Of a DNA stretch of 64,000 nucleotides, positions 12,374 through 50,538 are shown piece after piece; the stretch's first letter is position 1, and the number at the start of each line of letters is the position of its first letter. Origin of the DNA: Arthrobacter sp. PGP41 (GTDB taxonomy: Bacteria > Actinomycetota > Actinomycetes > Actinomycetales > Micrococcaceae); NCBI RefSeq assembly GCF_002953935.1, contig NZ_CP026514.1:868001-932000 (forward strand). The letters are read 5' to 3'. Both the position numbers and the translations under genes were made by a program. A model generated the notes under the pieces. That model was not told where the DNA came from. It saw nothing but the letters and a program-made list of their open reading frames with translations, and ran no database searches.

Positions 12374-12436
12374 AACTAGGTAGCGCTAAGTGTCGTTTTG
12401 AGCGTTCAAAACGACACTTAGCGTTACTCAGATGGG
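12374..12436. repeat. Interspersed palindromic repeat, copy 1
   Basis: The core is an 18-bp perfect stem: CGCTAAGTGTCGTTTTGA (12384-12401) pairs with its complement at 12406-12423 around a 4-base loop. The left flank AACTAGGTAG matches copies 2 and 3; the right flank has decayed. It starts 7 bases after the XRE-regulator stop. The same element occurs at 46270-46335 and 50475-50538. Confidence 0.85.
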
Positions 12437-12529
12437 TGAGGCTCCGTAAACATGCGGTGCACATAGGAAAACCCGGGTGTATGATGGCAGTCACAACAGT
12501 CCCTCAACTCCTCGAAGGAGAGGCCTCCA

Positions 12530-13594
12530 GTGGAAGAGCTGCGCATCGAAGCCAACGGCAACCTAGGCCCCATTGATTCATCCCGCATCCCGCGCTACGC
12601 GGGCGCTGCCACCTATGCCCGGCTGCCGCGGCTGGACCAGGTGGCCAAAGCCGATGTCACCGTGGTGGGCGTGCCCTTCGATTCGGGCGTCTCCTACCGC
12701 CCGGGAGCCCGCTTCGGCGCCAACCACATCCGGGAAGCCAGCCGGCTGCTGCGCCCCTACAATCCGGCATGGGACGTCAGCCCCTTCGAGAACATCCAGG
12801 TTGCCGACGCCGGGGACATGGCGGTCAACCCGTTCAACATCAACGAAGCCATCGAAACCATCCAGCAGAATGCTTTGGACCTCACCGCCGGAGGCAGCAA
12901 GCTGGTGACCCTCGGCGGTGACCATACGATTGCCCTGCCGCTTCTCCGCGCCGCGGCCGAGCGGGCCGGGGGCCCGGTGGCGATGCTGCACTTCGACGCG
13001 CACCTGGACACCTGGGACACGTACTTCGGTGCCGAATACACCCACGGCACCCCGTTCCGCCGCGCCGTCGAGGAGGGCATCCTGGACACGGAAGCCATCA
13101 GCCATATCGGCACCCGCGGCCCGCTGTACGGCAAGAAGGATCTCGACGACGACCATCGCTTCGGGTTCGGCATTGTCACCTCCGCGGACGTCTACTACCA
13201 GGGCGTCCTGGAAACCGTGGCCAAGGTCCGGGACCGGATCGGCAACCGCCCGCTGTACATCTCAGTGGACATCGACGTCCTGGACCCGGCCCACGCTCCC
13301 GGCACCGGCACGCCCGAAGCCGGCGGCATCACCAGCCGCGAGCTGCTGGAGATCATCCGGGGCTTCCGCGGCATGAACCTGGTGGGCGCCGACGTCGTGG
13401 AGGTGGCCCCGGCCTACGACCATGCCGAGATCACCGGCGTAGCCGCCAGCCACGTCGCCTACGAACTGGTCACCCTAATGGCGGACAACGCCGTGGAAGG
13501 AAGCCGCTTCGGCTCGGCAACGGGATACGCCGCCCAGGCGCTCGGCCAGGAGGTCCGCCGGCCGGCAGGCTTCGCACCGGCGGGCAAGGAGTAG
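12530..13594 (+). CDS. Ureohydrolase of the agmatinase family, probably guanidinobutyrase
   Basis: A 354-residue enzyme from GTG 12530, preceded by AAGGAGAGG. All manganese-binding motifs of the arginase/agmatinase family are intact: GGDHTI, the FDAHLDTWD loop and [20 protein letters not shown]. The family hydrolyses a guanidino group to urea and an amine. The substrate could be agmatine, 4-guanidinobutyrate or 3-guanidinopropionate. The next gene resembles 2-ketoarginine-decarboxylase-type ThDP enzymes, which favours 4-guanidinobutyrate (product 4-aminobutyrate) in an arginine-transaminase route; that choice is inference. Palindromic repeat copy 1 separates it from the regulator gene. Confidence 0.85.
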
Positions 13595-13596
13595 CG

Positions 13597-15309
13597 GTGA
13601 TGGTCGAGCACGATCCGGGCAGGGCGGCTGTGCCGGCAGGGAAAGGTCCGGGTACGGGTGCGCGCAACGGCGGGGACCTCGTCGTGGAAACACTGGAAGC
13701 GCTGGGCGCGAAGACGGTGTTTGGCATCCCCGGGCAGCATGCGCTGGGACTGTTTGATGCAATGGGCCGGGGCAACCTGCAGTTCGTTTCCTCGCGGGTG
13801 GAGAACAACAGCGCCTTCGCTGCGGACGGGTATTCGCGGGCCACCGGTGAAGTGGGTGTCCTGTTCCTTTCCACCGGTCCAGGTGCGCTGACGTCCCTGG
13901 CCGGGCTGCAGGAAGCCTATGCCACCGGCGTGCCGATGGTGGTGGTAGCGAGCCAGATTCCGCTGGAAGGCCTGGGCGCCCGGCGCAAGGGCATGCTGCA
14001 CCAGCTCGATGACCAGAAGGCCTCGGCCGCGAACGTGACGAAGAGCCAGCGGCTGATCCAGCACGCGTCCGGCATCCCGTCCGCCATCCAGGATGCGTGG
14101 ACCGAGGCAATCTCCTCGCCCCAGGGGCCGGTGTGGCTCGAGATTCCGCAGAACGTCCTGCTCGATCCGATCATGGTGCCGCCGGTGGAGGACGCCCTCG
14201 CTGAAGCGGCGGACAACCCGCCGCGGGTGGAGCTGGTCCGCGAAGCGGTGAAATGGCTGCAGGCCGCCGAGCGCCCGGCCATCATTGCCGGCGGCGGTAC
14301 CCGCCGGGGCCGGGCTGAGAAGTCGCTGCTGTCCATTGCGGAGAAACTGCGTGCCCCCGTGATCTGCACTCCGGGCGGCAACGGCGCGTTCCCCTGGAAC
14401 CACGAGCTCTCGCTGCAGTCGTGGATCGAGGACCGCTACATGACCGACGTGCTCGAGGATGCCGACGTGCTGGTGGTGATCGGCTCGTCGCTGGGCGAGG
14501 TCACGTCCAACTACTTCACATTCGAGCCGCGCGGCAGGATCATCCAGATCGACGCCGAACCCCGGGTCCTGGAGTCCAACCGGCCCGGGCTGGGCATCCG
14601 CGCGGACGCGGGACAGGCACTGGCTGCCCTGGACGAGGCGCTGGAGGTGGAGCCTGCGCATGCCAGGCCCAACTGGCACGGCACCTCTCCGGAGGACCTG
14701 GTCAAGGAATCCCTGGCGAAAGTCCGGGCGCGCCTGGAATCCCAGGACCTTGCCAAGGAGCTGAAGTTCATGGCCGACATCCGGGAAGCGGTCCCGGCGG
14801 ACATGCAGACCTTCTGGGACATGACCATCGCCGCCTACTGGGGCTGGAGCTGCTGGGACGCCCGGGAGGGCCAGTTCCACTCCGCCCAAGGCGCCGGCGG
14901 CCTGGGCTACGGCTTCCCGGCGGCGATCGGCGCCGCCGTGGGGCTGGAAACAGTCGGCAAGCCGGGCCGGGTGCTCGCCGTCTCCGGCGACGGCTCGTCC
15001 ATGTACTCCATCGCGGAACTGGCCACGGCGAAGCAGCACAACGTGCCGGTCACCTGGCTGATCGTGGACGACGGCGGCTACGGCATCCTGCGCGAATACA
15101 TGGTGGGCGCCTTCGGCAAGGCAACCGCCACCGAGCTGGCCCGGCCGGACTTCGTCAAACTCGCCGAAGCCTTCGGCGTGCCGGCCACAAAAGTGGCGCC
15201 GGAGGACGTGGGGGAGGCGCTCAAGGCGGGCTTCGCCGGTGACGGGCCCAACGTCGTCGTGGTGGAAACGCTCCTGAAGATGTTCGCCCCCACCCATCTC
15301 CCCGCATAG
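13597..15309 (+). CDS. ThDP-dependent acetolactate-synthase-like enzyme, possible 2-ketoarginine decarboxylase
   Basis: A 570-residue protein with the three-domain layout of ThDP enzymes. The N-terminal domain has GIPGQHALGLFDAM and a catalytic Glu in SRVENNSAFAADGYSRA. The cofactor motif GDGSSMYSIAELATAKQHN ends in DDGGYG, where many relatives have NNG. It starts two bases after the ureohydrolase stop (GTG 13597 or ATG 13600), so the two are co-expressed. In Pseudomonas aeruginosa, AruI, once annotated as an acetolactate synthase, decarboxylates 2-ketoarginine, and the resulting guanidino acid is cleaved by a ureohydrolase. The same pairing here suggests that role. The alternative is a carboligase of unknown substrate. 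Confidence 0.7.
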   Translation: MMVEHDPGRAAVPAGKGPGTGARNGGDLVVETLEALGAKTVFGIPGQHALGLFDAMGRGNLQFVSSRVENNSAFAADGYSRATGEVGVLFLSTGPGALTSLAGLQEAYATGVPMVVVASQIPLEGLGARRKGMLHQLDDQKASAANVTKSQRLIQHASGIPSAIQDAWTEAISSPQGPVWLEIPQNVLLDPIMVPPVEDALAEAADNPPRVELVREAVKWLQAAERPAIIAGGGTRRGRAEKSLLSIAEKLRAPVICTPGGNGAFPWNHELSLQSWIEDRYMTDVLEDADVLVVIGSSLGEVTSNYFTFEPRGRIIQIDAEPRVLESNRPGLGIRADAGQALAALDEALEVEPAHARPNWHGTSPEDLVKESLAKVRARLESQDLAKELKFMADIREAVPADMQTFWDMTIAAYWGWSCWDAREGQFHSAQGAGGLGYGFPAAIGAAVGLETVGKPGRVLAVSGDGSSMYSIAELATAKQHNVPVTWLIVDDGGYGILREYMVGAFGKATATELARPDFVKLAEAFGVPATKVAPEDVGEALKAGFAGDGPNVVVVETLLKMFAPTHLPA

Positions 15310-15335
15310 GGCCCACTCAACCGAATACGCAGAAA

Positions 15336-15371
15336 AAGGGTCCCGGCCTCCGCAAGGAGCCGGGGCCCTTC
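15336..15371 (+). terminator. Rho-independent-type hairpin after the ThDP enzyme gene
   Basis: AAGGGTCCCGGCCTCC pairs imperfectly with GGAGCCGGGGCCCTT around a short CGCAA loop, giving a very GC-rich stem. It sits 26 bases after the stop of the gene at 13597-15309 and before the MarR-operon promoter. Confidence 0.7.
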
Positions 15372-15395
15372 GTCATCCCCGAAGCCCTTTAGTTT

Positions 15396-15431
15396 CCTGA
15401 AGCAATCAAATGGGTATATAGTTGCTTCAGG
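15396..15431. promoter_or_regulatory. MarR-type operator CCTGAAGCAA-N16-TTGCTTCAGG
   Basis: Two perfect 10-base arms (15396-15405 and 15422-15431) flank a 16-base spacer with the AT-rich TATATA, a plausible -10. The dyad lies 27 bases upstream of the MarR-type gene start. Autorepression of the marR-efflux operon through this site is strongly suggested. Confidence 0.8.
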
Positions 15432-15457
15432 CAAACAAGTAAGGAGTGTCTGTAGCA

Positions 15458-15928
15458 ATGGCAGTTGCACCGGATACGGCGGCCGATCTCGTCTACCAGA
15501 TCTTCGATCTCCAGCGCGCGGTGCGTTGCATCGCCACTGCCGCAGTCCGCGGGCAGGAGACCGGAGTCGCACTCCAGGGCGTCCTCCGGTTCGTGGGAGA
15601 GGGGGAGTCGCGCGCCACGAGCCTGGCCGAGCGGCTGGGGGTCAGCGCGCCGGTCCTCAGCCGCCACATCGCGGACCTGGAGGAGCACGGCCTGGTGGTC
15701 CGCAGGCAGGACCCCGACGACGGACGGGCACAGTTGGTTGCCCTCACGCCCCTGGGAGTAGACAGGCTCCGGAGCATCGAGGAGCAGCGGACGGCAGCCC
15801 TGCAGGACTACCTGCGGGACTGGAGCGAGGAGGATGCCGGCAACACGGCGAAAACCCTGCACAAGCTCACCGAATCACTCAGGAAATCAGCCCGGGCAAC
15901 GGCGGCCGGCACCATCACCACCCCCTAG
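15458..15928 (+). CDS. MarR-family transcriptional regulator
   Basis: A 156-residue protein. ATG 15458 is chosen because AAGGAG at 15441-15446 is too close to serve the GTG at 15446. The winged helix runs through about residues 40-110: TSLAERLGVSAPVLSRHIAD is the recognition region and VRRQDPDDGRAQLVALTPLG is the wing with its conserved Asp-x-Arg. MarR proteins release DNA when they bind phenolics or drugs. It lies directly upstream of an efflux transporter, and a perfect 10-bp dyad overlaps its promoter, so it probably represses both genes. Confidence 0.9.
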   Translation: MAVAPDTAADLVYQIFDLQRAVRCIATAAVRGQETGVALQGVLRFVGEGESRATSLAERLGVSAPVLSRHIADLEEHGLVVRRQDPDDGRAQLVALTPLGVDRLRSIEEQRTAALQDYLRDWSEEDAGNTAKTLHKLTESLRKSARATAAGTITTP

Positions 15929-15938
15929 GAGCAAACCC

Positions 15939-17558
15939 ATGGCAACCACAGCCGCCCCGGCCACCATGCCGAGTGCACCCGCTGCACCGCCCGAAATGTC
16001 CCACCGCCAGATCATGGAAGCGCTCACCGGCCTCCTGGCCGCCTTCTTCACGGCGATCCTCAGCAGCACGATCGTGGCCAACGCCCTGCCGACGATCATG
16101 TCCGACCTGCACGGCACCCAGACCGACTTTGCCTGGGTGATCACCGCCGCGCTGCTGGCCAACGCCGCCACTACGCCCATCTGGGGCAAACTTGCTGACC
16201 TCTATGACAAGAAGGTCCTGGTCCAGCTGAGCATCATCATCTTCGTTGCAGGGTCCGTCATGGCAGGACTCTCCGACACCATCCCGCTGCTGCTGGGTGC
16301 GCGGGTCGTCCAGGGCGTTGCCATGGGCGGCCTCACGGCATTGGCCCAGGCCATCATCGGCACCATGATCCCGCCGCGGAACCGCGGGAAATACTCCGGC
16401 TACATGGGCGCGGTCATGGCGGTCGGCACCGCCGGCGGACCGCTGCTGGGCGGCTTCATCGTGGACAGCCCGCTGGGCTGGCGCTGGACCTTCTTCGTGT
16501 GCGTGCCGCTCGCCGTCGTCGCCCTGATCCTCCTGCAGGCCACCCTGAAGATCAGCCACGTCCGCCGGCCCGCCACGATCGACTGGCTCGGTTCCATCCT
16601 GCTCACCTCCGGCGTAAGCCTGCTGCTGATCTGGGTCTCCTTCGCCGGCAACCCCGCCTACTACGACTGGATCTCCTGGCAGTCCGCCCTCATGGTGGGC
16701 GGCGGAATGCTCCTGCTGGCACTGCTGGTCCTGGTGGAATCCAAGGTGGAACAGCCCATCATCCCGCTCAAAATCATCTCCGAACGCACCACGGCCCTTG
16801 CCATCCTCGCCTCAGTGGCGGTAGGCGTCGCGATGTTCGGTTCCTCAACCTTCCTGGGGCAGTACTTCCAGGTGGCCCGCGGCGCCACCCCCACCGAGGC
16901 CGGACTGCTTACCCTGCCCATGATCGCCGGCAACCTGGCGGGCTCGGTGGCATCCGGACTCCTGATCAGCCGCACGGGAAAGTGGAAGGGCTACCTGATC
17001 GCGGGATCCATCCTGCTGATCGGCGGGCTGGGACTAGCAGGGACCATGGACCACAGCACGGAGCTCTGGCACGCCGGAATCTTCACAACGGTGCTGGGGC
17101 TTGGCCTGGGCATGCTGATGCAGAACCTTGTGCTGGCGGTGCAGAACACGGTCCGGGCTGCGGACATTGGGACGGCCAGCGCCTCCGTGGCGTTCTTCCG
17201 GTCCGTGGGCGGGGCCATTGGCGTCTCTGTCCTGGGCGCCGTCCTGGCCAACAGGGTCAGCGAACTGGCCACCCAGGGACTGGCAGCGGCCGGTATCCCC
17301 GTCCAGGGCGGCGCTGCGGGCTCCAGCATGGACTTGGCGCACATGCCGGAACCCGTCCGCGACATCATGCGGGCCGCCTACGGTGACGCCACCGCGGAAG
17401 TGTTCCTGATCTCCGCCGCCGTGGCCGTCGCCGCCCTGGTGTCCGTGCTGTTCATCAAGGAAAAGCCGCTGCGGCGGACGGTTGACATCCAGCCGGCGCC
17501 GGAACAGGCGCGGAAGCAGGAAAGCTCGACGGCGGAGCCCGCCCCGGCGGGCAGGTGA
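15939..17558 (+). CDS. DHA2-type MFS multidrug efflux transporter
   Basis: A 539-residue protein from ATG 15939, with TAGGAGC upstream. It has about 14 hydrophobic segments, as expected for EmrB/QacA-type drug:proton antiporters. Typical features are LAAFFTAILSSTIVANALPT in helix 1, the PIWGKLADLYDKK loop after helix 2, the ARVVQGVAMGGLTALAQAI helix and the GPLLGGFIVD motif C. It is 10 bases after the MarR gene and is presumably induced by its own substrates through that regulator. The export substrate is unknown. Confidence 0.88.
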   Translation: MATTAAPATMPSAPAAPPEMSHRQIMEALTGLLAAFFTAILSSTIVANALPTIMSDLHGTQTDFAWVITAALLANAATTPIWGKLADLYDKKVLVQLSIIIFVAGSVMAGLSDTIPLLLGARVVQGVAMGGLTALAQAIIGTMIPPRNRGKYSGYMGAVMAVGTAGGPLLGGFIVDSPLGWRWTFFVCVPLAVVALILLQATLKISHVRRPATIDWLGSILLTSGVSLLLIWVSFAGNPAYYDWISWQSALMVGGGMLLLALLVLVESKVEQPIIPLKIISERTTALAILASVAVGVAMFGSSTFLGQYFQVARGATPTEAGLLTLPMIAGNLAGSVASGLLISRTGKWKGYLIAGSILLIGGLGLAGTMDHSTELWHAGIFTTVLGLGLGMLMQNLVLAVQNTVRAADIGTASASVAFFRSVGGAIGVSVLGAVLANRVSELATQGLAAAGIPVQGGAAGSSMDLAHMPEPVRDIMRAAYGDATAEVFLISAAVAVAALVSVLFIKEKPLRRTVDIQPAPEQARKQESSTAEPAPAGR

Positions 17559-17594
17559 CACCAGGGGCGTACTCCCCGCGCTCCGCGATGCCGA

Positions 17595-17607
17595 TACGAT
17601 TCTGGTC
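17595..17607 (+). promoter_or_regulatory. -10-like TACGAT seven bases before an ATG (leaderless start candidate)
   Basis: TACGAT at 17595-17600 fits TAnnnT and is followed by seven bases and then ATG 17608, with no Shine-Dalgarno sequence. This spacing is the one expected for leaderless actinobacterial transcripts. Confidence 0.5.
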
Positions 17608-18141
17608 ATGGAAAAGGGCAAGATCGTGGATGCACAGTTGATCACGCAGGAGGCGCCCGCGCAGCAGGACACCCCGGCGCAGCCGGAATCCACGGGCGGC
17701 CGCCGGATCGAGGTGCTGGTGCCCATGCGCTGGGGTGACATGGACGCATACGGGCACATCAACAACGTCCAGATCGTCCGGATGCTGGAGGAAGCCCGGA
17801 TCGCAGCCTTCGGCCCGCCGCGGGGCGCGGGGCTGCCCGGCATTGAACCCCGCGTCTCACTCTTCAACGATGTCCCGGACGGGACCATGGCCCTGGTGGT
17901 GGACCACAAGATCCGGTACGTCAGGACCCTTGAATACCGCAACGTTCCGGCCGTGGTCCTGGTGTGGATCGGGGCCGTCAAGGGGGCAAGCTTTGATATC
18001 AACTACCTGGTCCAGGACCCGGTCACCCGGGAGGACTGCGTGAAGGCAAGCAGCCACCTTGCGTTCGTGGACGAAGCCACGGGCCGGGTGCAGCGGCTTA
18101 CTCCGGAACAGAAGGAACGGCTGGCACCGTTCACTGCCTGA
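17608..18141 (+). CDS. Hotdog-fold acyl-CoA thioesterase (4HBT family)
   Basis: A 177-residue protein when started at ATG 17608; the first 30 residues are a low-complexity Gln/Ala/Pro-rich leader. The hotdog domain starts with IEVLVPMRWGDMDAYGHINN, containing the catalytic Asp region WGDMDAYGHINN of YbgC/FadM-type 4-hydroxybenzoyl-CoA thioesterases. The domain ends with SSHLAFVDEATGRV. It would hydrolyse an acyl-CoA in the cytosol. No ribosome-binding site precedes the ATG, but a -10-like TACGAT lies seven bases upstream. The residues around the start (DADTILVMEKGKIVD) also resemble the end of ABC ATPase domains; see findings. Confidence 0.8.
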   Translation: MEKGKIVDAQLITQEAPAQQDTPAQPESTGGRRIEVLVPMRWGDMDAYGHINNVQIVRMLEEARIAAFGPPRGAGLPGIEPRVSLFNDVPDGTMALVVDHKIRYVRTLEYRNVPAVVLVWIGAVKGASFDINYLVQDPVTREDCVKASSHLAFVDEATGRVQRLTPEQKERLAPFTA

Positions 18142-18228
18142 GCCGTCTTGCGGCGGCAGGGCACTGCCACCCATTGCGCAGCGGGCGCCTGCACCGGAAA
18201 CTGAAACCCCAACCAAGGAGCAGAGAAC

Positions 18229-18462
18229 ATGGCCAAGAAAAAGACCTGGAAGGAAATGACTCCGTCGGCCAAGGCAGGCACCATTGTGGTGGGCATCGTG
18301 CAGATGTCCCTGCTGGTGGCAGCCCAGCGCGATATCTCCAAGCGCCCGGCCGCAATGATCAACGGTCCCAAGGCAGCCTGGCGGGCGGCGTCCTTCATCA
18401 ACTTCATCGGTCCCATGGGCTACTTCATTTTCGGCCGGAAGAAGCCCGTCACCGCCATGTAG
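18229..18462 (+). CDS. Small PLDc_N-type membrane protein
   Basis: A 77-residue protein, with AAGGAG upstream of ATG 18229. It has two hydrophobic stretches (GTIVVGIVQMSLLVAAQRDI and AASFINFIGPMGYFIFGRKK) joined by INGPKAAWR. This resembles the phospholipase D/cardiolipin-synthase N-terminal domain (PLDc_N), which occurs widely as a stand-alone two-helix mini-protein in actinobacteria. There is no catalytic HKD motif, so it is not itself a phospholipase. Function is unknown. Confidence 0.75.
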   Translation: MAKKKTWKEMTPSAKAGTIVVGIVQMSLLVAAQRDISKRPAAMINGPKAAWRAASFINFIGPMGYFIFGRKKPVTAM

Positions 18463-18521
18463 TGAGCCGGGCCAAGACCGGCCGTTCACCGTCTGTTGAG
18501 CGCCCGTCCAGCTTGACCCTG

Positions 18522-18534
18522 TAAATTTGAATCC
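18522..18534 (+). promoter_or_regulatory. -10-like TAAATT seven bases before the mcrB ATG (leaderless start candidate)
   Basis: TAAATT at 18522-18527 is followed by seven bases and ATG 18535. No Shine-Dalgarno sequence is visible, matching the geometry of leaderless transcripts. Confidence 0.5.
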
Positions 18535-20766
18535 ATGACCCCCGCCTCCACTGCTGCCATGACCCGCGCCCTCGGCATATCAGAGGAGATTGAGGACGCA
18601 GCATGGTTCGTACTGGGCCCGGGGCTGCTGGGGAAACCGTCGGCCCTGGATGGCCGAACCCTGACGTGGACCGGGGACGCGGCCGCAGAGCTTCTGGAGC
18701 GGCTGGAACGCGGGACGCCTGACCCCAAGGCCCCCATGATGACCAACCTGCGGCAGAACCTGGACGGCGCCTCCAGAGAAGCGAAGCAGCTGGCCGTCGA
18801 ACTGTTGTTCCTGCAGTCCCTTCCGCTGGCCCATGAGGTGAAGTCACTGAAGGTCAAGCGTGCCCGCGTGGCCGAGGCTGCTTCATGGCTGGAGCCTCCG
18901 CTGGAACTGCCCGACGAGCTCTACGAGGGCATGACGGACCACGGTGTCATCAGGGACCGAACCGCCGAGTTCAACTGGACCATCTGGGACCACCTGAAAT
19001 GGCTGTGCCGGTTTGTGCAGCACGTGGACCAGCAGCCCACGGCGGCCATCGCGGCGGCGCTGCAGGACCCGCTCGAGTTCCACCGGCTGGCGGCCGCAAC
19101 CCCGGACGACCAGCCCGCAATCCGCCGCAGCATCGAGTTCCTCACCTGCCCCAGCTACTTCGAGCCCGTGGTGGCGGACGTGGAGCGGCAGGAGATCCGG
19201 GACGCCTTCGCGTCGCTGGTGGGCGGCGCGAAGGGGGATGCCGAAGAGGACATCACCGCTGACATCCACCGTATCCGCCTGCACCTGGATGAGCAGGCCG
19301 GCCAGCGCATCGACTGGTACTCCCGCCAGCTCGTCAGCCAGTGGCGCAAGGTGGGCGACCCCGGCCGGCGGGCCTGGCTGCTGCGCACGCACAGCGACAA
19401 CACAGAGCTCCTTACCGCCTGGCAGGGCGAGGAAAAGGCGACCCTCGACGTCGAACACCTTCGACTGCTGGACCCCGGCGTTACCGCCGGGCTGGTCCAG
19501 CACGCCGTGGACGAGGACTACAAGCACCTCGGTTACGTGGAGCGCGAGGACACCAAGACGGCGGTCTTTGCCTTCCTGACGGTCATGAAGCCGGGGGACC
19601 TGGTGCTGTACCAGCACGCCGGCACCGTGAGCCTGGGGGTTGTGCTGGGGGAGCCCGAACACAACGACGACAACCGGCGCCTGCGCCGCAAGGTCCGCTG
19701 GTTCGACGAGGGACACACCACCACCAGCCTTCCCCGGCACGTCCAGCGGCAGCTGGCCACCCCCGGCATCGTCGTGGATGTGACCAAGGTGGTGCAGGCG
19801 CTGCAGGCACTTCTGCCGGCAGAGGCGGAAACAGAGCCCGACGACGGCGCTGAAGCGGCCGCCGTCGTACCTCCCGTCCAGGAGGGCTTCCGCCCGCTGA
19901 CCCGCGAGTTCGCGGACTCGCTGCACATGGAGCTTGAGCCGCTCCAGGAGATCGCCGAGCTGCTGGAGGAGAACCGGCAGCTGGTCCTGTACGGCCCGCC
20001 CGGGACCGGCAAGACCTACCTGGCGAAGCACCTCGCCGCCGAACTGGCGGACGACACCACGGACGAGCGGGTCAAACTGGTCCAGTTCCATCCCTCCTAC
20101 GCCTACGAGGACTTCTTCGAGGGGTACCGCCCGGACAAGACCGACGAAGGCCAGGTCTCCTTCAAGCTGGTGGCTGGGCCGCTGCGCCGGCTCGCGGAGG
20201 AGGCGGCGAAGCCCGGCAACGAAAACAAGCCGTACTTCCTCATCATCGACGAGATGAACCGCGCCAACCTGGCCAAGGTGTTCGGCGAACTGTACTTCCT
20301 TCTGGAATACCGGGACGACCGGATTTACCTGCAGTACAGCCCCAACGAGCCGTTCACCCTGCCGGACAACCTGTACATCATCGGCACCATGAACACCGCG
20401 GACCGTTCCATTGCCATGATGGACGCGGCCATCCGGCGGCGATTCTCCTTCATCGAGCTGCACCCGCAGACCGAGCCCGTGAAGGGCTCCTTGCTGCGGT
20501 TCCTCCAGGCGCGGCAACTCGACCTCACGCCGGCGCTGCTGCTGGATGCCCTGAACAGTGCGATCGACGAGTGGGACCGGGACCTGATGATCGGGCCGTC
20601 CTACTTCATGAAGCCGGCTGCCCAGACCCCTGCCGGGCTGCGCCGGATCTGGAAGTACGAGCTCATGCCGCTGCTGGAGGAGCACTACCACGGCCAGCTG
20701 ACCCGGGCGCAGCTCGAGGAGCGCTTCGGGCTGGACCAGCTGCTGGGACGCCTTGCGGGCCGCTGA
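18535..20766 (+). CDS. mcrB: McrB-like AAA+ GTPase/ATPase of a type IV restriction system
   Basis: A 743-residue protein. The C-terminal AAA+ domain has Walker A GPPGTGKT at residues 487-494, IIDEMNRANLAKVFGELYFL and the GTMNTADRSIAMMDAAIRRR region, all hallmarks of McrB motors that translocate DNA. The N-terminal 450 residues differ from E. coli McrB. At about residues 340-420 there is an EVE/PUA-like stretch (FLTVMKPGDLVLYQHAGTVS, then LGVVLGEP), likely to read a modified base. It overlaps the mcrC-like gene by 14 bases. The system should cut DNA with modified cytosines, but see the McrC active-site change. Confidence 0.85.
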   Translation: MTPASTAAMTRALGISEEIEDAAWFVLGPGLLGKPSALDGRTLTWTGDAAAELLERLERGTPDPKAPMMTNLRQNLDGASREAKQLAVELLFLQSLPLAHEVKSLKVKRARVAEAASWLEPPLELPDELYEGMTDHGVIRDRTAEFNWTIWDHLKWLCRFVQHVDQQPTAAIAAALQDPLEFHRLAAATPDDQPAIRRSIEFLTCPSYFEPVVADVERQEIRDAFASLVGGAKGDAEEDITADIHRIRLHLDEQAGQRIDWYSRQLVSQWRKVGDPGRRAWLLRTHSDNTELLTAWQGEEKATLDVEHLRLLDPGVTAGLVQHAVDEDYKHLGYVEREDTKTAVFAFLTVMKPGDLVLYQHAGTVSLGVVLGEPEHNDDNRRLRRKVRWFDEGHTTTSLPRHVQRQLATPGIVVDVTKVVQALQALLPAEAETEPDDGAEAAAVVPPVQEGFRPLTREFADSLHMELEPLQEIAELLEENRQLVLYGPPGTGKTYLAKHLAAELADDTTDERVKLVQFHPSYAYEDFFEGYRPDKTDEGQVSFKLVAGPLRRLAEEAAKPGNENKPYFLIIDEMNRANLAKVFGELYFLLEYRDDRIYLQYSPNEPFTLPDNLYIIGTMNTADRSIAMMDAAIRRRFSFIELHPQTEPVKGSLLRFLQARQLDLTPALLLDALNSAIDEWDRDLMIGPSYFMKPAAQTPAGLRRIWKYELMPLLEEHYHGQLTRAQLEERFGLDQLLGRLAGR

Positions 20767-21985: not shown

Positions 21986-21988
21986 GGG

Positions 21989-23653: not shown

Positions 23654-23739
23654 AGGTAGGGGAGCGGGGTCAGTGGAGCCATACCAGCAGGATATCGGCA
23701 GCCAGCTATACTTCTGACGTTGGCTGCTGAGGGGGCGCT

Positions 23740-37350: not shown

Positions 37351-37390
37351 GTGCGAAGCCTACCGGAGGCGGCCGGCCGTCACGCGGCGC

Positions 37391-37786: not shown

Positions 37787-37858
37787 GGGTTACGCCTTCC
37801 TATATGCCCGAGGCCCAAGCTGCCAGCCTAAACGCTGGCTCCGCTGTGCGGCCGCAAC

Positions 37859-38719: not shown

Positions 38720-38722
38720 GCC

Positions 38723-39643: not shown

Positions 39644-39799
39644 CTCTTCAGTCTGACGGCACCTGGCGGATGTGCCAATTGCAGTGCCACGGGCCACATG
39701 GGGATGTCCTGGATGTTCACATCGTGGACGCATGCATACGCCAGTGGCCTCCAGGCACTAAGATCACCGCAACCACCCCAGCGTTTTGGAAGCTCACTC

Positions 39800-40390: not shown

Positions 40391-40420
40391 CCCGCCAGGC
40401 GGTGCCTGTAGGGATTAAAG

Positions 40421-40466
40421 AACGACGCCGGCACGTCCCTTGTGGGGGCGTGCCGGCGTCGTTTTT
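40421..40466. terminator. Bidirectional intrinsic terminator
   Basis: AACGACGCCGGCACG (40421-40435) and CGTGCCGGCGTCGTT (40449-40463) form a perfect 15-bp stem with a 13-base loop, followed by TTT. It lies between the convergent ends of the membrane-protein gene and the rpf gene. Confidence 0.9.
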
Positions 40467-40571
40467 GGTCAACGGAATTTGTCTATCGCCGACCTGTCGG
40501 TGGTGCCGCTGGGGCTGGCGCCCCGCCGTGGCTGGCCCCGGCTGTGACAAGCCGCAGGGCCTGTGCAGCCA

Positions 40572-41255
<684 letters not shown>

Positions 41256-41378
41256 TCATCGCGCCACTGCCCGCCCCTGACGAATAGAGGTCAATTTCGG
41301 TGGCTGCCTGCTGGGCAGTTGTGGTGGAGGCAGCACCGGGCATTCCTTCGCCCGCGAGCAGCGGGCATGCGTTTCACG

Positions 41379-43955: not shown

Positions 43956-44003
43956 TGGTTCGACTCTAGTGGCGATTCGGGCCCCGGGCATTATCCTGAC
44001 CCG

Positions 44004-45068
44004 ATGGATAACTTTGCGGACGGCACTGCCGTGCCTGATACAGAACCGGACGAAGCTGGGCTTGACGTGCCGGCCAGGCTCCTCCCGGTGGCGGAGCTGC
44101 ACCTTCACATCGAGGGAACCCTCCAGCCCGAGCTGATCTTCGCACTCGCAGAGAGAAACGGCATCACCCTGCCGTACGCAGGCCTGGACGAGCTCCGGGA
44201 AAGGTACGAGTTCACGGACCTGCAGTCCTTCCTTGACCTGTACTACGCCAACATGGCTGTGCTGCAGACAGAGCAGGATTTCGCGGACATGACCCGGACC
44301 TACCTGGAGCGCGCAGCTGCAGCCGGGGTGCGGCACGCCGAGATCATGATGGACCCGCAGGCCCACCTCACACGCGGGATTTCCCTGCAGACCTGCGTCA
44401 ACGGTGTGGCGTCCGTACTGGCAACGTCGCAGGAGGACTTTGGGATTTCAACCCTGCTGATCGCTGCGTTCCTGCGTGATCTTTCCGAGGAGTCGGCACT
44501 GGAAGTGCTGGACAGCTTGCTGGCCATGGACGCACCCATTTCCGCCGTCGGCCTGGATTCCGCCGAGGTGGGCAATCCGCCGTCGAAATTCGAGCGGCTC
44601 TATGACAAGGCACGCGAAGCAGGCCTGCGGCTGACGGCGCACGCCGGCGAGGAGGGGCCGCCGTCGTACATCATCGAAGCCCTGGACATCCTGGGCGTGG
44701 AACGCATTGACCACGGCATCCGCTGCATGGAGGATCCGGACCTGGTGGAACGCCTGGTGGATGCGCGGATTCCGCTCACCGTCTGCCCGCTGTCCAACGT
44801 CAGGCTCAGGGCCGTGGACACCCTTGCCGACCATCCGCTGCCCGCAATGCTCGCGGCGGGGCTGAACGTGTCCGTCAACTCGGACGACCCTGCGTACTTT
44901 GGCGGCTATGTGGACGACAACTTCGCCCAGCTGGGGGCGGTGTTTGAGCTCTCCGATTTCGACAAGGCCCGGCTGGCCGCGAACTCGATCCATTCGTCCT
45001 TCGCTTCCGAGGAACGGAAGGCGGAACTGCTGGAGGAACTCAACGGCGGCGAAGTGGCGGGCGCTTAA
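44004..45068 (+). CDS. Adenine deaminase (adenosine deaminase superfamily)
   Basis: A 354-residue metal-dependent amidohydrolase from ATG 44004. Metal-binding HLHIEGTLQPELIF is near the N-terminus, catalytic HAGEEGPPSYIIEAL is in the middle, and RIDHGIRC and SVNSDDPAYFGGYVDDNF are near the end. The SDDPAYFGGY form of the last motif is characteristic of the adenine deaminase (Aah1-like) branch rather than adenosine deaminase. The product would be hypoxanthine for purine salvage. It is divergent from uvrA2, with 48 bases between the starts. Confidence 0.85.
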   Translation: MDNFADGTAVPDTEPDEAGLDVPARLLPVAELHLHIEGTLQPELIFALAERNGITLPYAGLDELRERYEFTDLQSFLDLYYANMAVLQTEQDFADMTRTYLERAAAAGVRHAEIMMDPQAHLTRGISLQTCVNGVASVLATSQEDFGISTLLIAAFLRDLSEESALEVLDSLLAMDAPISAVGLDSAEVGNPPSKFERLYDKAREAGLRLTAHAGEEGPPSYIIEALDILGVERIDHGIRCMEDPDLVERLVDARIPLTVCPLSNVRLRAVDTLADHPLPAMLAAGLNVSVNSDDPAYFGGYVDDNFAQLGAVFELSDFDKARLAANSIHSSFASEERKAELLEELNGGEVAGA

Positions 45069-45324
45069 CGTGTCCCAGGCAACAGCCGCTGATTAATCCC
45101 GCTAATATGGGTGCCGCAGGCGTGTCTGGGGAAGTGCAATGTCGCACCCATGTCAGCGCTCAAGGGTTGTGCAGTCAGCCCGTTTCCCGAGACCTCAGCC
45201 TCATTTTGTGGGGACGTCCGCTTAATAGTCGGTCACGACACGCAGTGTTAACCATTTCAAGTCGCGCGAATTAACCGGCAGTTGGCAAGATGCCTAAGAC
45301 CGATCGCATTTATAAAGGGGAATC

Positions 45325-46254
45325 ATGGCCAAGTCCACCGCAGAAAACACCTTCCTTCGCCTCAAGACCGTGCTGGATGTCCTGACCGAAGGCGTGTGGT
45401 CCGGCGATGCACTGAACGCGGGGCAGGTCCTCGCGGAGGCTACGGCACGCGTGCCGTTCAACGAGCACGAAGCTGAACTGCTCAGCGGCGGAATTCCCCG
45501 CGGGCACAAGACGCTCACCTCAGCCACCGCAAAGCTGGTCAAGGCCGGCTGGCTGGTCAAGGGCCGGTCCGGCTGGACCATCACTGACGAAGGCATGCGC
45601 GCCACGGTTGCCTTCCCGGACGCAGTGTCCTTTGCCACCGCGCTCGACGCCGGCGCTCCAGTGCCTGCCGAGGTCCAGGTTCCCACTGCTCCCGAGGGCT
45701 TCGTGCGCAGGACCACCGCGGTTCCCGAAACGGCAGCGCCGGCAGCCGTGGCCGCCGACGCCAAGAAGGCTCCTGCAAAGAAGACCCCGGCAAAGAAGGC
45801 CGCCGCCGCCGTGGGCAAGGCAGCCAAGGTGATCGAGGACGCCGTCGAGCCCGTTGTCAAAGCCGTGCGCACGCGCAAGGCGCCGGCCAAGGCCACTGAA
45901 ACCGCCGTACCCGTGGCAGCGGAGCCGTTCGAGGACGCGGACGTTGAGACGCACCCGCAGCCCGAAGCCGTGGCTGTAGCGGGCGACTTCAACACGATCC
46001 TGGGCGCCCCGGAGAACTGGGCACCGCAGTACGACGAAGCCCAGATGGAGTTCGACTTCCTGGACCAGCTCTGGAAGAAGAACGCCGACCTGCCCGCCGG
46101 TTTCTACACCTTCAAGATCGCCCTCAACCGGTCCTGGGAAGAGAACTACGGCGCGTTCGGCGCGTTCGACGGCCCCAACCACGAACTGCACCACGCCGGC
46201 GGCCCGGTCACCATCCGCTACAACCACAGCACCCGCGACATCACCATCAACTAA
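45325..46254 (+). CDS. Winged-helix / lysine-rich / X25-domain protein
   Basis: A 309-residue protein without a signal peptide; ATG 45325 follows AAAGGGGAA. Residues 1-95 resemble the Mrr-type N-terminal winged helix (FLRLKTVLDVLTEGVWSGDA, then LTSATAKLVKAGWLVKGRSG and WTITDEGMRATV). A middle section has histone-H1-like repeats (KKAPAKKTPAKKAAAAVGKA). The C-terminal about 90 residues match the X25 domain of bacterial pullulanases: GAPENWAPQYDEAQMEFDFL, then AGFYTFKIALNRSWEENYGA. The parts are individually recognisable, but the combination is unusual. It may bind both DNA and a glucan or act as a nucleoid protein. Confidence 0.7.
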   Translation: MAKSTAENTFLRLKTVLDVLTEGVWSGDALNAGQVLAEATARVPFNEHEAELLSGGIPRGHKTLTSATAKLVKAGWLVKGRSGWTITDEGMRATVAFPDAVSFATALDAGAPVPAEVQVPTAPEGFVRRTTAVPETAAPAAVAADAKKAPAKKTPAKKAAAAVGKAAKVIEDAVEPVVKAVRTRKAPAKATETAVPVAAEPFEDADVETHPQPEAVAVAGDFNTILGAPENWAPQYDEAQMEFDFLDQLWKKNADLPAGFYTFKIALNRSWEENYGAFGAFDGPNHELHHAGGPVTIRYNHSTRDITIN

Positions 46255-46269
46255 GTGTCCGTCCGCCTG

Positions 46270-46335
46270 CCCAACTAGGTAGCGCCAAGTGTCGTTTTGG
46301 ACGCTCAAAACGACACTTACTGCTACCTAGTTGGG
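46270..46335. repeat. Interspersed palindromic repeat, copy 2
   Basis: Outer arms CCCAACTAGGTAGC (46270-46283) and GCTACCTAGTTGGG (46322-46335) pair over 14 bp. Inner arms AAGTGTCGTTTTG (46287-46299) and CAAAACGACACTT (46306-46318) pair over 13 bp. A 3x3 internal mismatch lies between them. It begins 16 bases after the stop of the X25-domain gene. Confidence 0.88.
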
Positions 46336-46365
46336 AGGGGACGGCACTGACGGAGGGGAGGCACC

Positions 46366-46725
46366 TTGGCCAGGCACGCAGGTCCGTCATCCGAGGTGCC
46401 CGATCCTTCTGACGGCGCCCCGCCATCCGAGGGAGCCGCGTCATCCGACGCGGGTGCGGTGCGGCTGACTGCCCGGGTTTTCGGCGTGGTTCAGGGTGTT
46501 GGCTTCCGCTACTGGACCAGGGGCCAAGCCGAAGAGCTCGGCCTCATCGGCGAGGTGAAGAACCTCGCCGATGGCTCGGTGGGCCTGGTCGCCGAAGGAC
46601 CCCAGGGGAAAATCAACGAACTCCGCACCTGGCTGAATTCCGGGCGCACCCCCGGGCGTGTGGAGCGCGTGGAGGACTCCATCTCCGCGGCCGAGGGTGG
46701 CTTCCGCGGGTTCAGGGCGCGCTGA
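46366..46725 (+). CDS. acyP: Acylphosphatase
   Basis: A 119-residue protein from TTG 46366, preceded by GGAGG. The first 30 residues are a Pro/Ser/Ala-rich extension. The rest is a normal acylphosphatase: VFGVVQGVGFRYWTRGQAEE holds the catalytic Arg, and VKNLADGSVGLVAEG holds the catalytic Asn. The enzyme hydrolyses acyl phosphates. It lies downstream of repeat copy 2 on the same strand as the X25 gene and converges on the large nuclease/helicase gene. Confidence 0.9.
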   Translation: MARHAGPSSEVPDPSDGAPPSEGAASSDAGAVRLTARVFGVVQGVGFRYWTRGQAEELGLIGEVKNLADGSVGLVAEGPQGKINELRTWLNSGRTPGRVERVEDSISAAEGGFRGFRAR

Positions 46726-46751
46726 GCTTTACGGCTCCTGACCCGCTTGGC

Positions 46752-49700
46752 TCAATCCCGCGGGCTGAGCCCAATGAAGGCACCCAGCTCCTCCAGCGCT
46801 GCGGGCTTGTGCGGCGCGTAGCTGGTGAGCTCGGGGGAGCGGATGATCACGGCCCGCCATTGCCCGCGTGACACGGCCACATTGATCCGGTTCCTGTTGA
46901 GCAGGAACTCAGCTCCCCGCGGTGCCTCGGCCACGGCGGAGCATGCCATGGATACGATCACAACGGGTGCTTCCTGGCCCTGGAACTTGTCCACGGTTCC
47001 CACCCGGACATCCGGCAGCCCGGCTTCCTCCAGGGCTTTCCGGACCAGGTGGACCTGGGCGTTGTAGGCGGCCACCACCAGCAGGTCCTGCTGGTCGAGG
47101 GGCCGCGGCTCGCTCTCCGCCCCCGGTTTCCATTTCAGGCCAAGGTGCCGCCGCGCCTGACGGACCACCTCCGCAGCCTCTTCCCTGGACGCTGTGGTGT
47201 TGCCGGTGTGCTCCACGAACACAGTTTCGACGCCGGGCGGCAGCTCCTCGAGTTTCCGCTGCGAGGCTGCCGGGGCGGACTTCAGCTTTCCTTCGTAGCT
47301 GAGCCCGGAAACTGCGCGGCACAGTTCCGGGTGCATCCGCCAGCTGTCGGCCAGGAAGTAGCCAAGGCTGGCAGGCAGGGTGGCGTGGCCTGCGGCCAGC
47401 CACCCCAGTGCGGACTCATCCACGGGCTCGGGGTGCGCGCCCTGGGTGACTTGTGGCAGCTGCTGCGGATCGCCGAGCAGGAGCAGCCGCTTGGCGGCCC
47501 GGGAAACAGCGAGGGTGTTGGCCAGCGAGAACTGCCCGGCTTCATCGATCACCAGCAGGTCCAGGGAGCCGGCCGGGACCTCCTTGCCGGTCATGGTCCA
47601 GGCCGTTCCGCCCACAAGGCAGCCGCCGGAGGATGCGAGCAGTCGGGCGACGTCGCCCTCGCCCCTGGACTTCCAAGGAACGTCGTGCGGGGCCGCCAGC
47701 TTCTTGGTAACCGCCGCCGGATCAACGCCGCCGGCGGCAATGGCGCGGCAGAGCAGGTTCTCCACCACGTTGTGCGACTGGCCCACTACGCCGATTTTCC
47801 AGCCCTCATTCACCAGCCGGCCGATGACGTGGGCGCCGACGTACGTCTTTCCAGTGCCCGGCGGGCCCTGCACGGCGAGGTAGGAGCGCTGAAGGTCCAG
47901 GAGTGACGCCGTGATCGCCGCAGCGTAGTCCGCGGCGCCATCGGTGCCATGGGGCACGACCACCGGTCCGTCCAGGCTTCTGAACCGCGGCGGCTGCTTG
48001 CGCAGGATGTCCAGCCCGGGTTGGGCGGGCAGCGATGGCACGGACGCGCCAACGGCGGCGGCGGCGATCTCCGCGATCGCAGCTTCGATGCTCGCGGTGG
48101 CCAGCGGCTGGTCCTCGGTAAGGGCCACGGGCAGGTGCGGGTAGGCGGCAACCTTCCCCGACTCGCGCTCCGCGATGGTGATGATGGTGTGCTCCGGGTT
48201 GTCAGGGGCCGGAGCCAGCTCGCTGATCCTGGTCCCGAAGGAGTAGGCGCGTGCACCGGGAGCAGCGTCCGGCGCGGCCATGCCCTCCGGGGGCGGTGCA
48301 TCGTAGAGCCGGCACCAGGTGGAGTCTGCCCGGAAGTCCGACCCCTCGGTCATGGTGCCGCTGAGCCGGAGCACCCGGGTCCGCATACGCTCCCGGGGTT
48401 TGGCCAGCGCCCAGTCGGAGACGACCTCGGCCGAGGACACCACGAACACGTTCCGTTGGTCCGCCCAGGTCTCGAGCGGTGCTTCCACGCGGTCGAAGTG
48501 CTGCCACCAGAACTGCTTGCGCTCGCGGCGGTGGTAGCCGGTGGCGGCGGCCACCATCGCGATGGCGCGTTCGTCATCTGTCCAGGAGCGGTTGTCCGGG
48601 AGGTCTGCCAGGTACTCGCACAGCCGGGCCTCCGCTGGACTTTCCCCGGGGGCAGCCCGCTGTTCCGGCGCTTGCTGGCGCTCGGCTGGACCCCGGCGGT
48701 CCGGGGATGCTGCGGGCGCGGTGGCCTGCGCCCCCACCTCCCGCAGCCAATCCCTGAGCCGGAGCGTGGACAGGCAGTCGTACTGGTTGTAGTCCGAGAT
48801 GGACGCGAGGACCTTGTCCGCTTCCGCCATATTCCCGGCATCGCGGGCCGCGCAGTACGCGGCGTAGGCCACCACGGAGGCACCGGCGTCCTTCACGTCC
48901 CCCGAGCGCAGGTTGCTGCCCATATAGAGCGGTTCGAGTTTCTTGATGGAGTAGGAGGGCTCGGAAATGCGCAGCGAATGCCGGACGGTGGCGTAAAGAT
49001 CAACCAGCAGCCCTTCCCGGAGCCACTTGTCCACCGTCTCCTCCCCGGCCTGGTGCGCCAGCGAGAGGTTGCGGAGCGCCGTTTTTTCGTACGCCGCGTA
49101 GTGGTAGACGTGCATGTCCGGATACCGTGCCCGGCGTTCCTCTACGTAGGCAAGGAAATCCAGGAAGGCGCGGCGCTCCCCGGACCTGGAGTGCGCCCAG
49201 AACGGACGGAACACCGGGTCCCCGTGATGGTCTGGAGCCGGCGCCTCGACCACTCCGAACAGGTACTCGATGCCCCAGGCTCCGGTGGCGGGATCCTGCC
49301 AGAGGGGGTCACCCTCGAAATCGAAGAAGATGTCCCCGGGGCTGGGCGGCGGGAGCGACCCGATGGTGCTTCCGGGCAGGACAGTGAACGCGACCGTATG
49401 GGGCTGGCCGTCCTTGATGAACGTCCGGGAGCCGGCGGCGGCGTCCAGCCCCAGCTGCATCCGCGCCTGCGACCGGAGCCGGGCCACGGAATTCCGGGCG
49501 TCCCCGGCAGGCATTGCCGCGAGTTCGTCGATGGTGGTGATGCGGGCGGCGTGCAGTTTCTTTCGCTGCACCACAGACATTCCTGCCACCATCAGCAGGT
49601 CCCGGTGCAGCTGCACCTGCTCGGCGCAGTAATCGCACCGGCCGCAGTGGGCGATTCCCGGCTGCTGCCACTGCACCGTGGCGTCAGCCTCCCTGTGGTG

Positions 49701-50369
49701 CGTAACCAGTTCGCGGAAACGGCGCCGCCGTTCACGGAAAACAGGCAGCAGGTCCGGCAGGGAGTGGCTGCTGCGGAGCCAGTCTTCACCTATGCGCGTG
49801 CCCAGCACCAGCGTGACCACCGGTGAGGGCTCAATGCCCATCCCCAGCAGTTGGTCCCCGTAGGCGGCGAGCTGGAGCAGGGCGCCCGCCTTGGCGTGCC
49901 GGGCGAGTTTCGTGTCCCAGACCTCGTAGCGGCCGGGGTCTCCGGTGCCCGCGGCTTCGTTGACCAGGAAGTCTGCGTAACCCAGGAACTCCCCGTCAAA
50001 GAACGTGGCCTGGAACACCACGTCCGCCCCGGACCGCAGGGCGAGCTCTGTTTCCGCATGCTTGGCCTTCAGTTCCCCGCGCACGTTCTGGCCACGGTCA
50101 AGGCAGTACACGCCCGCACCCCGGCTGGAATCCCATTCGCCGTACTTGGCAACCAGGCTGGCAAGGACGGTTTGCTCATGCCGGTCGCCCAGTTCGCCGG
50201 CGCGGACCTGCATCTCGTCTGCGGGGAAGACGGCCTTGGGGGAGCGGCCCAGCTTCTCGTCCAGGACCCGGAGCATGCGGTACTCGCACTCGCTGGCAGC
50301 CACAAGGTCGCTGGCGGAAAACACCAGGTCCGGCGGCGCGCCAGCGGCAGCAGCTTCAAGCAGGAACAC
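46752..50369 (-). CDS. TM0106-type RecB-like nuclease fused to an SF1 helicase
   Basis: A 1205-residue protein from GTG 50369, with GGGGAGG upstream. The N-terminal part has a RecB-family nuclease core (YADFLVNEA, then YEVWDTKLARHAKAGALLQL with D-x-K and Gln/Tyr), a four-Cys cluster region (HCGRCDYC), and a predicted RNase H-like nuclease (FFDFEGDPLWQD and later YNQYDCLSTLRLRDWL). The C-terminal third is an SF1 helicase: GPPGTGKTYVGAHVIGRLVN, VIDEAGQFSLANTLA, the DPQQLPQVTQG strand, and DKFQGQEAPVVIVSM. It probably processes DNA ends or structures. Partners are unknown. Confidence 0.88.
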   Translation of the reverse strand: MFLLEAAAAGAPPDLVFSASDLVAASECEYRMLRVLDEKLGRSPKAVFPADEMQVRAGELGDRHEQTVLASLVAKYGEWDSSRGAGVYCLDRGQNVRGELKAKHAETELALRSGADVVFQATFFDGEFLGYADFLVNEAAGTGDPGRYEVWDTKLARHAKAGALLQLAAYGDQLLGMGIEPSPVVTLVLGTRIGEDWLRSSHSLPDLLPVFRERRRRFRELVTHHREADATVQWQQPGIAHCGRCDYCAEQVQLHRDLLMVAGMSVVQRKKLHAARITTIDELAAMPAGDARNSVARLRSQARMQLGLDAAAGSRTFIKDGQPHTVAFTVLPGSTIGSLPPPSPGDIFFDFEGDPLWQDPATGAWGIEYLFGVVEAPAPDHHGDPVFRPFWAHSRSGERRAFLDFLAYVEERRARYPDMHVYHYAAYEKTALRNLSLAHQAGEETVDKWLREGLLVDLYATVRHSLRISEPSYSIKKLEPLYMGSNLRSGDVKDAGASVVAYAAYCAARDAGNMAEADKVLASISDYNQYDCLSTLRLRDWLREVGAQATAPAASPDRRGPAERQQAPEQRAAPGESPAEARLCEYLADLPDNRSWTDDERAIAMVAAATGYHRRERKQFWWQHFDRVEAPLETWADQRNVFVVSSAEVVSDWALAKPRERMRTRVLRLSGTMTEGSDFRADSTWCRLYDAPPPEGMAAPDAAPGARAYSFGTRISELAPAPDNPEHTIITIAERESGKVAAYPHLPVALTEDQPLATASIEAAIAEIAAAAVGASVPSLPAQPGLDILRKQPPRFRSLDGPVVVPHGTDGAADYAAAITASLLDLQRSYLAVQGPPGTGKTYVGAHVIGRLVNEGWKIGVVGQSHNVVENLLCRAIAAGGVDPAAVTKKLAAPHDVPWKSRGEGDVARLLASSGGCLVGGTAWTMTGKEVPAGSLDLLVIDEAGQFSLANTLAVSRAAKRLLLLGDPQQLPQVTQGAHPEPVDESALGWLAAGHATLPASLGYFLADSWRMHPELCRAVSGLSYEGKLKSAPAASQRKLEELPPGVETVFVEHTGNTTASREEAAEVVRQARRHLGLKWKPGAESEPRPLDQQDLLVVAAYNAQVHLVRKALEEAGLPDVRVGTVDKFQGQEAPVVIVSMACSAVAEAPRGAEFLLNRNRINVAVSRGQWRAVIIRSPELTSYAPHKPAALEELGAFIGLSPRD

Positions 50370-50474
50370 GGGGCCTCCCCATCGACAGCCGGGCTATCAT
50401 CGGCGGGCCGGAGGAGAAGTCCCGTGGCCCAGAATCAAAGCTAGCAAGAGGCACCGACAAACAGCCGGGCCCCG

Positions 50475-50538
50475 AAACTGGGTAGCGCCAAGTGTCGTTT
50501 TGAGCCCCCAAAACGACACTTGGCGCTACCTAGTTGGG
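50475..50538. repeat. Interspersed palindromic repeat, copy 3
   Basis: Positions 50481-50502 and 50509-50530 form a perfect 22-bp stem around the 6-base loop AGCCCC. Pairing continues outward with one wobble for four more pairs. It starts 9 bases after the terC stop (reading leftward gene order) and lies in the 177-base gap between terC and the helicase start. Confidence 0.9.

Follow-up and report, generated by a model that had tools for sequence, protein, structure and literature searches.

Long palindromes at gene ends of Arthrobacter sp. PGP41 as probable sites of an AbiEi-Vsr fusion nuclease: a candidate two-part selfish repeat system

What kind of element is a long palindrome that recurs three times within 64 kb, each time directly past the end of a different gene? 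The window analysed here, i.e., the whole stretch of 64,000 nt from Arthrobacter sp. PGP41 (contig NZ_CP026514.1, positions 868,001 to 932,000), had been annotated initially with three such repeats, for which the following extents and neighbouring genes were determined.

12371..12436, no strand: palindrome copy 1, arrangement 30-6-30, centre AGCGTT, beginning 4 nt beyond the stop codon of 11791-12366
46270..46335, no strand: palindrome copy 2, arrangement 30-6-30, centre GACGCT, beginning 15 nt beyond the stop codon of 45325-46254
50473..50538, no strand: palindrome copy 3, arrangement 30-6-30, centre AGCCCC, 8 nt beyond the stop codon of 51746-50547 (minus strand)
11791..12366, plus strand: HTH-cupin regulator gene, with copy 1 at its 3' end
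45325..46254, plus strand: pullulanase X25 domain gene, with copy 2 at its 3' end
50547..51746, minus strand: TerC-family membrane protein gene, with copy 3 at its 3' end

All three copies exist as 66-bp palindromes of a single repeat family, and their RNA folds lie 9.4-10.9 standard deviations below those of dinucleotide shuffles. Each copy is indeed located behind a stop codon, but the gene belonging to copy 3 is situated on the minus strand and not on the plus strand. Similarly, the compensated change reported for T12387 is real, since T12387-A12420 of copy 1 is replaced by C50489-G50522 in copy 3; the pairing partner is A12420, not A12418. At a threshold of at least 22 of 30 pairs and a loop of 4-8 nt, five palindromes were found in the whole window, of which two do not belong to the repeat family. 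A separate long inverted repeat with 24-bp arms (92%) at 62408-62467 lies outside the palindrome family. A search of the window against Rfam gave no match at gathering score.

In the genome of this strain (G000, 4.27 Mb), the repeat unit comprises 66 bp, composed of a 30-bp arm with the consensus CCCAACTAGGTAGCGC(T/C)AAGTGTCGTTTTG, six free bases, and the reverse complement of the arm. The pattern GTGTCGTTTTG-N{2,12}-AAAACGACAC was detected at 29 places genome-wide (27 on both strands, 2 on a single strand) and its reversed control nowhere in the whole genome; though a spacer of 2-12 was permitted, all 29 matches are 28 bp long with a 6-base centre. Occurrences of the half-site GTGTCGTTTTG (71 at 44 centres) represent 41 clear copies, one degenerate copy, and two unrelated sites. 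With a covariance model built from the 41 clear copies, the computed dispersal extends to at least 54 places (107 strand matches, E <= 0.01), a lower bound because 150 of 713 candidates were scored. At least seven of the 54 places carry a different outer arm, CGATTGCTCCGTA, and are referred to as type 2. The 6-base centre occurs in 33 forms in 42 copies and follows R-V-S-S-B-Y, except for two copies deviating at the fourth base. Covariation inside this one genome (7 of 500 shuffles reach its covariation score and 25 of 500 its paired percentage) is weak evidence when taken alone; the strong evidence comes from the comparison between genomes. With at least 54 places and compensated changes across genomes, the family-wide structural role proposed for the element is not refuted. 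No copy was found in a 765-kb stretch (G000:C1:1425733-2190614; 1.43-2.19 Mb) roughly opposite the contig start, a gap that was matched in 36 of 20,000 random draws.

The preference for gene 3' ends also applies genome-wide. Based on gene calls by a codon model trained on the window, 30 of the 54 places lie between tandem, 21 between convergent, and 3 between divergent genes. A stop codon is found within 30 nt at 49 of 54 places, compared to 18% of random intergenic placements in the window, and convergent positions (21 of 54) compare to 6% of random placements in the window. In case of the tandem copies, 29 of 30 are located nearer to the end of the upstream gene. Seventeen of the 54 places overlap a gene end, and in ten of these the gene stops at arm base 9, because arm bases 7-9 (TAG, TAA, TGA) serve as the stop codon.

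This placement, together with stems folding 9-11 standard deviations below shuffles, is what would be expected of bidirectional terminators or mRNA 3'-end hairpins serving the host, with the nuclease described below merely using the same terminator type on both sides. We consider this explanation unlikely. The stems are not followed by a T-run, so that the copies are not canonical intrinsic terminators; only 54 places were found in 4.27 Mb, and ordinary terminators can do without a near-fixed length and a common sequence.

Allowing one mismatch, 21 of 59 searched genomes contain a match, the own genome included, all of them in one genus group, and the covariance model matched at least 57 of 295 genomes of the family, again including the own one, in 14 of 32 genus groups. 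The latter number is a lower bound as well, because 17 candidates were scored per genome. Among at least 118 matching stretches from GTDB genomes, the 80 listed belong to Arthrobacter, Pseudarthrobacter, and one Sinomonas. The repeat was also found in four plasmid records of Arthrobacter/Paenarthrobacter; phage records gave no match to the repeat and IMG/VR contigs none to the exact core pattern. In other genomes, the geometry is kept but the arms differ, and these arms are repeated within the genome concerned, namely AACTGCAGTTTTG in G254, GGGGCCGTTTTG in G314, and GTGCACCCAAA in G155, and the type-2 outer arms recur in G104 and G192. Orthologous gene ends bear each species' own dialect, as seen for the G254 sites 278254, 595881, 2688984, 3914578, and 4176043, which are orthologous to sites in G000; site 4176043 is a hybrid in which the two arms belong to the two different dialects.

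Some relatives lack the element at orthologous sites. Copy 3 is missing at loci L159 and L163, and in case of L163 the sequences on either side almost meet, but their divergence is too great for a duplication to be read. Presence and absence at orthologous places, short size, and dispersal are properties of a MITE whose arms would be the inverted repeats of an ordinary insertion sequence. This origin is very improbable. The arm AACTAGGTAGCGC (at most one mismatch) occurs 70 times in G000, each time inside one of the 54 places or, in one case, at its edge, which leaves no insertion sequence in G000 with this arm at its end; a parent element with the same terminal repeats was not found there. 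The few pairs of occupied and unoccupied sites showed no target-site duplication, but they are too diverged for one to be read.

Three further assignments were rejected. The attC sites of integrons have conserved GTTRRRY/RYYYAAC ends; in the present element the ends are variable (C6 to G), and attC-type ends are absent from the second subfamily. DNA uptake sequences would occur as many single copies, coding DNA included; in G000, 42 of 44 half-site centres are part of palindromes, one of these degenerate. The inner 11-6-11 geometry is Xer/dif-like, and no further support for such a site was found.

In the initial annotation, a REP-like element or a mobile terminator family was considered. Of this assignment, the dispersed, intergenic, and palindromic nature, the location at gene 3' ends, and the compensated changes persist; a Y1/RAYT gene and a T-run are missing. 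Intergenic dispersed palindromes, genome-specific dialects, and a driver gene flanked by the repeats are known from classical REP elements moved by a RAYT transposase. As an explanation of the present family this is extremely improbable, since Y1_Tnp (PF01797) had no match in G000, with the control positive in 5 of 14 genomes; a genome without a Y1/RAYT gene does not fit classical REPs. In addition, the long symmetric palindrome differs from the tagged 20-40-bp REP in the part of the REP literature consulted (PMC3733652).

The statement that no transposase is nearby agrees with the window as viewed overall; a candidate partner gene is situated about 236 kb away. In G000, close pairs of copies, one pair of type 1 and one of type 2, bracket homologous ORFs. 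Both encoded proteins match Pfam MTES_1575/DUF559 at scores below the curated cut-offs and AbiEi in PADLOC, and one of the two gave a weak Vsr match in NCBIfam; MTES_1575 was matched at E <= 0.01 by all 38 aligned members of this nuclease group. The computed two-domain fold is predicted to consist of an AbiEi-like N-terminus and an EDxHD/Vsr-type catalytic domain. The latter displays both the catalytic fold and conserved E-D-H-D residues, which we take to be exactly those denoted by the name EDxHD. In Foldseek alone, no match reached E <= 0.001; the best-ranked entry was I-Bth0305I at 0.013. A single match to a solved structure from a profile sequence search (E 0.12) was judged to be due to chance. 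No toxin gene was recognised by eye beside the nuclease at the two G000 loci. Three further close pairs in G000 (G000:C1:1395934-1396777, 3270928-3272825, and 3529727-3531913) enclose non-nuclease genes, named by eye: a 196-aa ORF; two ORFs, one MFS-like; and ORFs of 71 and 385 aa.

Homologs of the nuclease (E <= 1e-6) are present in 227 of the 295 genomes of the family. Flanks were surveyed at 53 loci, i.e., the best homolog of 30 genomes, 20 chosen loci (one dropped as it gave no alignment), and 4 known loci, with the threshold of at least 22 of 30 pairs and a loop of 4-8 nt. Palindromes occur on both sides at 35 loci, on one side at 12, and on neither at 6. The number of both-sided loci is conservative, because L341 is cut by a contig end and the second palindromes of L364 and L365 are just outside the limits. 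The 30-6-30 geometry is the usual one; the loop comprises 6 nt in 72 of the 85 flank palindromes, 5 in eight, 7 in three, and 4 and 8 in one each. A typical type-1 unit is composed of a palindrome, about 62 nt, the nuclease gene (~311-317 aa), and a second palindrome, of which bases 7-9 contain the stop codon of the nuclease in many type-1 units. A further homolog in G000 (L382, G000:C1:147177-147848) contains a TAG in frame, is devoid of palindromes at the threshold, and looks like a decayed gene.

The nuclease and its palindromes diverged together. Protein distance and palindrome-arm distance are correlated (Mantel r 0.657, reached in 0 of 5000 permutations) in the 40 of 53 units having a 66-bp, loop-6 flank adjoining the gene, with a Sinomonas duplicate excluded; in part, this correlation is due to shared descent. 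Flanks differ by 0.17 inside a unit and by 0.48 between units. Paralogs in one genome possess different palindromes, with distances of 0.64 in G180, 0.62 in G020, and 0.61 in G002 (type 1 against type 2), and of 0.57 in G294 (first and third unit), 0.40 in G200, and 0.34 in G221 (type-1 units), compared to 0.12-0.23 within units of these paralogs; only rows with flank loops of 6 were used, the remainder being out of register. The likeness of flanks inside units and the difference between palindromes of paralogs speak against shared descent as the only cause, and the differences inside one genome argue as well against the terminator explanation. Over 66 flank palindromes, each column of the arm is occupied by between two and four Watson-Crick types, and pairing is observed in 36 to 66 of the 66.

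Presence and absence of the unit can be followed at purN, which was found in 61 of 61 searched genomes and of which 30 3' ends were read. The nuclease is present at 15 of these and absent from 15. All 15 loci with the nuclease carry a family palindrome upstream, and 12 of 15 carry one downstream as well, including a loop-5 copy in G000. Except for two loci with an unrelated palindrome and a decayed family copy in G355, the loci without the nuclease (12 of 15) have no palindrome. The G355 copy at the purN stop (L415, near 2069-2130) has 17 of 26 pairs and looks like a decayed solo copy without nuclease. At the purN 3' ends L395 (G349) and L397 (G011), where the nuclease is missing, palindromes of other sequence are found. 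From this comparison, the unit appears to occur, for the most part, either complete or not at all, and its dialect to change in place.

Matching of dispersed copies to the resident nuclease is less uniform. Ranked against 44 flanks, with samples from other genomes biased to the G000 dialect, the own flank has a median rank of 1 only in G254, G192, and G209 (one copy), of 2 in G000, G104, and G031 (one copy), of 3 in G021, and of 4 in G322, G002, and G294 (one copy each in the last two). Poor ranks were obtained for G020 (18, three copies), for G180 (29), G282 (16), and G001 (15), with one copy each, and for G272 (33.5) and G314 (27). A 400-kb sample of G020 contains two type-1 copies, neither in the dialect of the resident nuclease. 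No close type-1 nuclease was found for G272 and G314 in the search of 295 genomes, and the dispersed copies of G314 match flanks of G358 in 5 of 5 cases. The strongest objections to a tight pairing at present come from the mismatches in G020, G180, and G282 and from the copies without a close nuclease in G272 and G314; these observations would agree with a lag and loss of the driver.

A third pair is present in G000, where a paralog of 38% identity at 3.19 Mb (G000:C1:3192645-3193701) has its own flanking palindromes of about 65 bp with arms GCAACGCGGGGTCACTT. These are dispersed at gene ends as well, e.g., at 1770940, 3234774, and 3464204. The arm has 78 matches in G000, compared to 35 for the reversed control, and forms 11 inverted pairs exactly 41 bp apart; 9 of 14 dispersed places read are convergent. 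Two occurrences were found in a 200-kb sample of G358.

In another order, a DUF559 protein of Tsukamurella (33% identity over 64% of the query) is flanked by two near-identical palindromes with 23 and 25 of 26 pairs and a loop of 10. This palindrome recurs in 8 records of one isolate, its own record included. According to the deposited annotation, six of seven more places overlap a stop or lie no more than 20 nt away from one, and the seventh overlaps a gene start, with the next stop at a distance of about 31 nt. In a second Tsukamurella paralog the palindrome is weaker (19/26) and of different sequence, and it recurs beside one of the dispersed places; a third has a weak palindrome only. Recurrence of the association with unrelated arms in Tsukamurella likewise speaks against the terminator explanation. 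Considering seven distant homolog loci, both flanks are palindromic in one (Tsukamurella), one flank in four, and none in two (Nonomuraea and a partial viral match). Loci L493, L496, and L502 of Tsukamurella tyrosinosolvens, deposited as plasmids of one isolate, show the same arrangement with unrelated palindromes. Distant nuclease homologs are also encoded by one phage-labelled record and one viral contig; the former (L494, MT837503.1, an unannotated gut record labelled Bacteriophage sp.) has a perfect palindrome with 26-bp arms downstream of the gene.

Altogether, the palindromes are probably the cognate sites of the AbiEi-Vsr fusion nuclease, both forming a two-part selfish system; the pairing suggests a previously unrecognised selfish repeat system of soil bacteria. 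Its first part would be the autonomous unit of palindrome, about 62 nt, nuclease gene, and palindrome, and its second part the many solo palindromes directly past stop codons of host genes. A dimer on the 66-bp palindrome appears as the natural reading: the AbiEi-like parts of a homodimer would read the two 30-bp arms, and the EDxHD/Vsr-type catalytic domains would be positioned over the 6-bp centre. For the dimeric I-Bth0305I, a target length of nearly 60 bp is given in the portion of the report available (PMC3943268). Nicks or breaks at the centre, repaired from other copies, may spread and homogenise the arms and leave the centre free to vary. Solo copies would be tolerated, since all they contribute past the end of a gene is a stop codon and a strong hairpin; for transcripts arriving from either side, the latter may also act in termination or protection. 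With 54 sites in the resident chromosome, cutting would kill the host unless the nuclease makes nicks only, is silent, or is blocked. Besides this and the dialect mismatches, the reading is opposed by the six nuclease loci without a palindrome, the one-sided or missing flanks at six of seven distant homologs, the 13 flank palindromes with loops other than 6, the three close pairs around unrelated genes, and the share of common descent in the Mantel correlation.

Alternatively, the protein might read operators at its own gene and genome-wide, with the nuclease domain acting elsewhere, e.g., in defence. Such a regulon is in keeping with the predicted AbiEi fold of the N-terminus, since AbiEi binds inverted repeats and autoregulates through them, as described in the section of the AbiEi study consulted (PMC7319586). 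We regard it as quite unlikely, because the copies follow stop codons rather than precede genes as promoter sites would, 29 of 30 tandem copies being nearer to the end of the upstream gene, and because the second flank is located at the stop of the nuclease itself.

Returning to the two-part selfish system, it is tempting to speculate on a general class of selfish elements in Actinomycetota, in which every DUF559/MTES_1575 homing-type nuclease lies between copies of a long palindrome of its own that it also disperses; a single genome would then harbour several nuclease-palindrome pairs, all different from one another. For this extension the case is evenly balanced. In its boldest form, a dimer would cut both flanking 6-bp centres, and the unit, freed with half-palindrome ends, would be inserted elsewhere, a transposition-like cycle driven by a homing-type nuclease without a transposase. 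If true, a biological role would be suggested for a nuclease group listed in Pfam as of unknown function (DUF559) or by locus name (MTES_1575). A natural series of long-site nucleases with matched targets would make the evolution of specificity directly testable.

As far as the searches reach, the nuclease partner makes this a new kind of system; in literature searches with thin coverage of subscription journals and preprints, no paper on the nuclease-palindrome association was found. Palindromic repeats without a known dedicated transposase are described as CGTC REPs, which, in the parts of the article consulted (PMC3733652), differ by loops of 4-5, shorter length, frequent dimers, and their origin from five other phyla, with neither Actinobacteria nor Arthrobacter named there. 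RepRanger tabulates putative REPs in Arthrobacter livingstonensis; the accessible part of that report (PMC12306157) contains counts only and describes no such family or nuclease. The present nuclease shares with EDxHD/Vsr-type homing endonucleases its presence or absence at an otherwise conserved locus, as seen at purN. Unlike I-Bth0305I, its gene is not intron-borne and is flanked by two palindromes, the protein has an AbiEi-like N-terminus, and tens of solo palindromes occur in the host. In contrast to the AbiEi antitoxin of type IV toxin-antitoxin systems, the AbiEi-like part is fused to a nuclease. The closest likeness in arrangement is to REP/REPIN elements and RAYT (TnpA-REP), with many short, intergenic, genome-specific palindromes, a repeat-flanked driver gene, and gene-less solo copies; the driver, however, is an AbiEi-Vsr/EDxHD-type nuclease and not a Y1 HUH transposase, and the element consists of two 30-bp arms. 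If the proposed pairing is true, the REP/RAYT arrangement would have been arrived at a second time, with a chemically unrelated enzyme.
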